DNA of 37,227 bases from a virus. The translations under genes and the position numbers were made by a program. Location: positions 1 to 37,227 of IMG/VR virus record IMGVR_UViG_3300031974_005642; one strand, 5' to 3'. Below, in pieces: positions 35,608 through 36,772 of this stretch (position 1 is the stretch's first letter; each line of letters opens with the position of its first letter). The notes beneath the pieces were generated by a model that worked only from the letters and a program-made list of their open reading frames with translations, was not told the origin of the DNA and made no database searches.

Positions 35608-35814
35608 ATGCAGGAAATAAGGTGTAGCCGGTGCAATCGGTTGCTAGTAAAAGCAATATTTATTCGCATTGAGGCCAAGTGCCCTCGATGTAAGTTCTTT
35701 AACAATCTGAGTGCCCCGAGCACCTTGAGCGCCCCGAGCGCCATTAAAGGTGCTCGTCATGATCAAATTACACAATCGGGATTGTCTGGCCATACTGGCA
35801 GAGATGGAGAGTAA
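35608..35814 (+). CDS. Com-like zinc-finger translational regulator
   Basis: A 68-aa protein. ATG 35608 is preceded by GGAGG (35598-35602). Four cysteines, C6/C9 and C25/C28 (IRCSRCNRLL and KCPRCKF), match the zinc-binding Com protein of Mu, which binds mom mRNA and opens its ribosome site. The C-terminal segment has a repeated LSAPS. The gene overlaps the methyltransferase gene by 56 nt in another frame, as com overlaps mom in Mu. Confidence 0.88.
   Translation: MQEIRCSRCNRLLVKAIFIRIEAKCPRCKFFNNLSAPSTLSAPSAIKGARHDQITQSGLSGHTGRDGE
35717..35756 (+). promoter_or_regulatory. hairpin sequestering the methyltransferase ribosome site
   Basis: CGAGCACCTT (35717-35726) pairs perfectly with AAGGTGCTCG (35747-35756), a 10-bp stem with a 20-nt loop, inside the com coding sequence. 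The 3' arm contains AAGG, the Shine-Dalgarno for ATG 35759. This is the arrangement of the Mu translation-inhibitor stem-loop relieved by Com. It is a probable Com target. Confidence 0.65.
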
Positions 35815-36079
35815 TAGCGTCGATCTGGTAGCGACAGATCCCCCATATTATCGAGTCAAAGCTGACGCTTGGGATAATCAGTGGGCAAGCGAGGCTGAAT
35901 TTATAGCCTGGCTTGAATCGGTAGTGATTGAATGCGTCAGGGTGTTAAAACCTACAGGCGGCCTCTATATGTTTATGGGGCCGAAAATGGCAGCCAGTGT
36001 TGAGCGAATGATTGCAAAGCATATGGTCGTCGAAAATCACATCGTTTGGATCAAGCCATCAGGCATGCATAAGCGGTAA
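35759..36079 (+). CDS. methyltransferase N-terminal fragment
   Basis: The 106-aa product made if TAA 36077 acts as a stop. It contains the DPPY active site but lacks the AdoMet-binding motif I, so it should not methylate DNA alone. Confidence 0.6.
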   Translation: MIKLHNRDCLAILAEMESNSVDLVATDPPYYRVKADAWDNQWASEAEFIAWLESVVIECVRVLKPTGGLYMFMGPKMAASVERMIAKHMVVENHIVWIKPSGMHKR

Positions 36080-36196
36080 TGCCGAGCGAGCCTTCGCCGT
36101 TATTTCCCAGCTACTGAGCGCATTATATTTGCGACCCAGCGCGAACATTCTGAGTCCAAAGCGCAGCATGCAGCAATTGCTGAGGCTTGTGAGCCG

Positions 36197-36772
36197 GTGA
36201 TTAGTTACTTAAGGGATGTGCTCGCGGGGAGCGGTTTAAGTCAGTCAGATGTAGATCGGGCGATTGGTGTCCAAATGGCGGGACACTGGTTTGGCCGGTC
36301 TCAGTGGCGGCTTCCCACTGAGGGTCAATATAAGCAGCTTCAACACTTGTTTAATGGTGGTTTAATTCGGTCTTATTCAGACGTTAAAGCCCAGTGCGAT
36401 GCCCTAGTAAATGATGCAACCAAACCGGCAAAACGCCACTTCGACCTAGACGGCCGCGAGTGGTTTACTGATGCGTGGGTGTGTCCGCCGGTGCAGTTTT
36501 ATCCCGGCAAACACCCCTGCGAAAAGCCAATGTCCATGATGGAACACATCATCACAGCCAGCAGCCGACTAGGTGACGTAGTGTTTGACCCGTTTATGGG
36601 AGGAGGGACGACGGGGGTGGCGGCCGTGGGTACTGGTCGGAGGTTTGTAGGGTGTGAGTTGGACGGCGATTATTTCTTAGTCACGTCAGACAGAATTTCT
36701 GAGACAATACTGGATCATCCAAGAAGTAAGGCTCATCAATCGAGTAGTACACTGATCAAATTCGATAATTAA
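36197..36772 (+). CDS. methyltransferase C-terminal fragment
   Basis: The 191-aa part carrying the target-recognition region and motif I (FDPFMGGGTTG). It could be re-initiated at GTG 36197, which has no good ribosome site. Together with the N-terminal fragment it might reconstitute a split enzyme, but this is inference. The frame is the same as in the upstream fragment. Confidence 0.55.
   Translation: MISYLRDVLAGSGLSQSDVDRAIGVQMAGHWFGRSQWRLPTEGQYKQLQHLFNGGLIRSYSDVKAQCDALVNDATKPAKRHFDLDGREWFTDAWVCPPVQFYPGKHPCEKPMSMMEHIITASSRLGDVVFDPFMGGGTTGVAAVGTGRRFVGCELDGDYFLVTSDRISETILDHPRSKAHQSSSTLIKFDN

Follow-up and report, generated by a model that had tools for sequence, protein, structure and literature searches.

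A probable Com-responsive translational operator attached to a DNA methyltransferase gene in a Mu-like transposable phage

The com-mom operon has long been studied as a peculiarity of phage Mu. An adenine methyltransferase is said to stand in place of mom in FluMu-type prophages, as an adenine-type enzyme does at the locus described here, and Drozdz et al. in 2012 reportedly placed the adenine methyltransferases Hin1523 (FluMu), Hia5 and Nma1821 at the mom position of Mu-like prophages. For the Mu Com protein, SELEX and probing identified a binding motif, CC(N)2-3GAG, that is presented in the loop of a hairpin (PMC6483171). A Com protein beside a methylase was annotated in Burkholderia phage KS5 in 2010 (PMC3091744), and com genes overlapping or abutting the gene for an adenine-type methyltransferase occur in KS5 (gp21/gp20), AP3, Escherichia phage Chuche and Aeromonas phage phiARM81ld. 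No RNA operator is described in the annotations of these four phages or in the passages of the KS5 paper considered here (PMC3091744). In Pseudomonas, genes of the PF10122 family precede lectin-like bacteriocins, tailocin cargo and lytic enzymes, where the role of Com was considered unexplored in a 2018 review (PMC6240691).

The stretch of DNA analysed here, which we call the window, is an IMG/VR record of 37,227 bases whose gene content is that of a Mu-type transposable phage. Its left end carries MuA- and MuB-like transposition genes, followed by terminase, portal, protease, major head and tail genes, with the portal, protease and major head genes at 13.5-21.2 kb. Profile matches in the window to phrog_310 (E=4.5e-143) and phrog_296 (E=2.9e-61) likewise mark the phage as Mu-like. 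Close to the right end, as in Mu, lies com (35608..35814; this and all features below are on the plus strand), which encodes a 68-amino-acid CCCC zinc-ribbon protein of the Mu Com family. The product matches PF10122 (E=1.4e-9) as well as phrog_6417 and phrog_13819 (‘gpCom control of modification’), it is 93% identical to the Com protein of a Zhongshania metagenome-assembled genome (L099), and it has the four-cysteine zinc ribbon (CxxC...CPxC, about 60 amino acids), with cysteines that align with those of Mu Com. In the public phage records UMP151, Mcat1, Bise, PAN70 and JD024, com is present yet unannotated.

The 3′ half of com overlaps the start of a methyltransferase gene, whose ATG (35759) lies inside com in another reading frame. 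A sequence-only reading had proposed this overlap, and both the coordinates and the PF10122 and PF01555 matches agree with it. That reading had also named an adenine-type methyltransferase, rather than mom, as the controlled gene. The N-terminal part (35759..36076) carries a DPPY motif, matches PF01555 (E=6e-16) and is up to 55% identical to adenine-type phage methyltransferases; the motif and the best phage matches suggest, at most, an adenine-type enzyme. The C-terminal part (36080..36769) continues in the same frame with a DPFMGGGTT motif and a second PF01555 match (E=1.6e-21). Between them is an in-frame TAA (36077..36079), on which the sequence-only reading was silent, and the window therefore holds the DPPY and AdoMet-site motifs of a PF01555 methyltransferase in an interrupted frame. 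The stop separates the two catalytic motifs, and the window copy is therefore probably inactive, or else the base was miscalled in sequencing or assembly. The frame is open at this place in the relatives L002, L003 and the Zhongshania prophage L099. Thus, the controlled gene is a DNA methyltransferase gene, as proposed, the window copy is probably broken while intact relatives exist, and the switch in this particular record probably controls a dead gene. A DNA-level search of phages with the window returned only methyltransferase matches, all of them short.

Upstream of the methyltransferase start is a perfect 10-bp stem, formed by a 5′ arm (CGAGCACCTT, 35717..35726) and a 3′ arm (AAGGTGCTCG, 35747..35756) that are exact reverse complements separated by a 20-nt spacer. 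The 3′ arm contains the AAGG of the Shine-Dalgarno (SD) sequence AAAGG (35746..35750), which is located 8 nt before the ATG, and the stem covers all of this element except its first A. Such an RBS-burying stem within com was the central claim of the sequence-only reading, whose coordinates for it are exact. Folding, which had been suggested as a check, places the stem in the minimum-free-energy (MFE) structure (-28.3 kcal/mol for 101 nt; z = -1.9, with 10 of 200 shuffles as good), and an 86-nt stretch with the stem has an MFE of -24.4 kcal/mol. Fold z-scores of this size (-1.9 and -1.1) are weak on their own. Perfect stems of at least 10 bp with loops of 3-30 nt occur five times in the window versus 0.8 times per shuffle, and the stem alone is therefore only modestly unusual. 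The notable part is that one of the five falls on an RBS inside com. The four further perfect 10-bp stems are at window positions 563, 8501, 11706 and 19055, with loops of 7-26 nt. The duplex between the 5′ arm and its own RBS (-18.3 kcal/mol) ranks in the best 2% when compared against the RBSs of other loci, and free folds of the window are predicted to leave the SD unpaired 2-3% of the time. These in silico results suggest that RNA structure would hide the translation start in the window when Com is absent.

The best-conserved element at this locus is not the 10-bp stem, however, but two small Com-type hairpins inside or beside it, which the sequence-only reading had missed. Both H1 (35711..35723, GUGC[CCCGA]GCAC, loop in brackets) and H2 (35729..35741, GCGC[CCCGA]GCGC) are 4-bp stems located within com. 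Their CC-NN-GAG loops fit the Mu Com motif, which makes them putative Com sites, and the assignment draws further on covariation across 46 loci and on the single match of our covariance model R1 in the window (44 bits, E=1.2e-9), which coincides with H1/H2. H2 also forms in the MFE fold. The 5′ arm of the RBS stem includes the H1 3′ arm, and therefore H1 and the RBS stem are mutually exclusive, while H2 is nested inside the RBS stem.

This architecture resembles Mu com-mom in its Com zinc ribbon, in the overlap of com with the start of its target, in a CC(N)2-3GAG hairpin just upstream, in an occluded start and in its right-end position. In contrast to Mu, the window target is a PF01555 methyltransferase instead of Mom, and there are two Com hairpins where Mu has one (AUGC[CUGCGA]GCAU). 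Moreover, the window RBS is hidden by an arm of a Com hairpin, whereas the inhibiting structure of Mu lies downstream of the Com hairpin. The suggestion that overlap and stem-loop mirror the com-mom switch fits the shared features, and the number of hairpins and the placement of the inhibiting structure set the window apart from Mu.

Com-protein searches of viral and genome collections, plus annotated phages, yielded 175 Com loci that reduce to 113 non-redundant ones, and the motif is at the expected place in 110 of these 113. Stem pairs 2-4 are Watson/Crick in 66-85% of cases versus 22-30% at control motifs. The fifth pair is rarer than at controls (8-10% versus 27-29%), so that the stem ends at four pairs. 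This depletion, often with A and C outside the stem, suggests that Com requires a stem of exactly four pairs. The usual loop has five bases in H1, at com+100, and six in H2, at com+122. Under synonymous recoding of these Com proteins, 8.0 loci are expected to carry at least one hairpin and 0.19 to carry two; the observed numbers are 101 and 54 of 113. In the 46-locus alignment, 98.6% of cells pair, changes on both sides of the stem occur in six of eight pairs (62 double-change cells versus 13.6 after shuffling), and RNAalifold recovers the identical two hairpins. This alignment was selected for two hairpins of at least 3 bp, and the unbiased figures are those for pairing against controls and for synonymous recoding over the 113 loci. 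At most phage loci, the enzyme start follows the last hairpin at a fixed spacing of about 16-24 nt. Among the phages in which com was already annotated beside a methyltransferase gene, Com-type hairpins were found in KS5, AP3 and phiARM81ld, and Chuche has the motif without a 3-bp stem.

When applied to 298 whole genomes at E <= 1e-4, R1 returned 24 matches, 21 of which are on PF10122 genes. Its specificity is high and its sensitivity low, as by the same count it missed more than half of the PF10122 genes there. The three matches off annotated Com genes are L188, L203 and L208. The first consists of an operator and a D12 methyltransferase gene from which the Com N-terminus (the zinc-finger half) has been lost; that genome has two other com genes, and activation in trans is possible. 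The second is probably a decayed Com, with a Com-like C-terminus and a downstream protein of the same kind as that of L213. An Rfam scan of the window at gathering thresholds gave no match. In L237, L238 and L239, a Com-like gene overlaps one for a small holin-like membrane protein, and no CC-NN-GAG hairpin was found there. Twelve near-identical Com loci (L101, L103-L105, L107-L114) come from one draft assembly of Methylophaga thiooxydans DMS010; several are equally far from contig ends, and they could be an artefact of assembly or reflect a transposable phage present in many copies.

The RBS-burying stem is less widely supported than the Com hairpins and is not uniform across the family. SD pairing with the 5′ part is marginally above swapped controls family-wide (p = 0.11), and SD occupancy does not differ across loci between the target and com’s own SD. 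The energy needed to open the -15..+5 RBS region is nevertheless higher at the target than at com’s own start (11.1 versus 7.6 kcal/mol across loci, p = 7e-8). Furthermore, in 13 of 50 loci the match of the H1 3′ arm to its own RBS ranks among the best 10% when RBSs are swapped (p = 0.001, uncorrected for kinship), and the sequences that build this match differ clearly between the window, L010, L016, L028 and L078. Given the marginal SD-pairing test, hiding of the RBS by the H1 arm appears to be one of several solutions, and we propose it for the window and for the loci where it is seen. Covariation of the stem was another check suggested by the sequence-only reading; the covariation seen across loci is that of H1 and H2.

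The same module precedes genes for very different enzymes. At least one 4-bp hairpin is present before 11 of 11 Mom genes, 60 of 61 D12 methyltransferases, 15 of 21 N4/N6 PF01555 methyltransferases, six of seven C5-cytosine methyltransferases, both of two ParB-type methyltransferases and all three ABC-ATPase/GNAT fusions. Mapping target class onto the Com tree requires about 35 changes where six would be the minimum, on a rough tree built from few columns; for D12, well-supported branches alone force at least 10 changes. The cleanest case is in Neptunomonas, where L123 (Mom) and L133 (D12) are near-identical in com, the hairpin and the SD and the likeness ends at the target start, a natural enzyme swap caught at the start codon. 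L123 and L134 are located on separate contigs of one N. japonica assembly. Taken together, the hairpins before Mom, PF01555, D12 and C5 enzymes, the tree changes and the Neptunomonas pair bear out the idea of the sequence-only reading that Com-type control can be swapped between modification enzymes. At the level of sequence such swapping is strongly supported, with the control presumably acting on translation.

The C5-cytosine DNA methyltransferases (PF00145) behind a Com operator are at L121, L161, L165, L076, L152, L172 and L032. At L043, L147 and L174, Com and hairpins are followed by a small ORF (about 50-58 amino acids) and then by an ABC-ATPase/GNAT fusion (phrog_11143), an arrangement that is a candidate for a new DNA-modification operon.

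Pseudomonas loci where a PF10122 gene precedes cargo (PMC6240691) likewise carry this kind of hairpin, in matching positions. There the cargo is not a modification enzyme: it includes B_lectin proteins (L224, L229, L230, L234), GH19-type lytic enzymes (L231-L233, L235), tailocin baseplate proteins (L216, L243), and DUF642 and other secreted proteins (L213, L225 and others). The next start at the bacteriocin and tailocin loci is further downstream, about 60 nt beyond H2, and RBS hiding may therefore differ. Pseudomonas Com variants (L213-L235, L243) have KCSRC, KCGRC or KCARC in place of KCPRC, and KCPRC is kept at L212, L221, L224, L228 and L243, which are loci of the same kind.

We estimate a probability of roughly 80% that the window carries a Com-responsive translational operator attached to a DNA methyltransferase gene in a Mu-like transposable phage. 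We infer Com binding and the order of events, and take the late timing from Mu by analogy. In the OFF state, the H1 3′ arm would pair with the methyltransferase RBS and hide it, while H2 could still form inside the long stem; alternatively, the H2 3′ arm would pair with the RBS. In the ON state, Com made late in infection from the overlapping gene would bind H2 and H1 at their CC-NN-GAG loops. With H1 locked, the strand that hides the RBS would no longer be available, the methyltransferase would be translated shortly before packaging, and phage DNA would thereby be protected. Window folds give -24.4 kcal/mol for the OFF state, -21.1 kcal/mol when H1 alone is forced, a fold in which the H2 arm covers the RBS, and -13.0 kcal/mol when both hairpins are forced and the RBS is free. 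This pattern suggests that the RBS opens only once both hairpins are captured. Forcing both costs 11.4 kcal/mol, which counts against the proposal insofar as Com binding or ribosomes translating com must pay it; the interrupted methyltransferase in the window, the uneven occurrence of the RBS stem and the different placement of the inhibiting structure in Mu also count against it.

Ribosomes might open the RBS without any help from Com protein, and such translational coupling, in which the hairpins would set only the basal level, is the main rival to a Com operator. Because com ends past the methyltransferase ATG, ribosomes on com cross the whole RBS stem, and overlap with the target ORF is the general pattern in this family, seen at every N4/N6, Mom and C5 locus. 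Coupling, however, would not call for conserved CC-NN(N)-GA loops, which are retained at fixed places in covarying stems, and Com is known to bind RNA and to activate the translation of Mu mom (PMC6483171); we regard this alternative as unlikely. Slightly less probable again is that the hairpins serve com autoregulation or com mRNA stability, with the downstream gene as a passenger. Their location inside com and the distant next start at the Pseudomonas bacteriocin and tailocin loci would suit such a role, but it accounts poorly for the fixed spacing between hairpin and enzyme at most phage loci, for the higher RBS opening energy at the target and for the retention of the com operator while the enzyme is swapped.

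Chance or a coding artefact, in which palindromic codons for the Com C-terminus yield functionless hairpins, is very improbable. In favour of such an origin, the 10-bp stem, when taken alone, is rare only to the modest degree given above. In contrast, synonymous recoding (101 and 54 loci versus 8.0 and 0.19), covariation, the sharp 4-bp stem length and the genome-wide specificity of the model lead us to reject a chance or coding origin for the hairpins.

Com next to a methyltransferase gene is present in earlier annotations, and what appears to be new is the tandem operator, with its covariation and its wide range of loci; the literature searched, mostly outside subscription journals, gave no description of tandem hairpins or of covariation across enzyme classes. 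We lean toward the broader view that Com and its tandem-hairpin operator form a portable RNA switch for many late genes of phages and bacteria that would be dangerous if leaky. These would include at least four families of modification enzymes, likely a fifth (the phrog_11143 fusion with its small partner ORF), and Pseudomonas bacteriocin and tailocin lytic genes. Either hairpin arm could hide the RBS and both would have to be captured, as in an AND-type switch. The Com operator can be recognized from sequence as a covarying hairpin RNA at about 100 phage and bacterial loci, before unrelated enzymes, and this offers a simple test for the Com-like genes before Pseudomonas bacteriocins that the 2018 review left open. 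New DNA-modification enzymes could be predicted from the genes behind the operator. The hairpin of Mu com already serves as an RNA aptamer, and the loci assembled here constitute a natural library of Com/RNA pairs for engineering.
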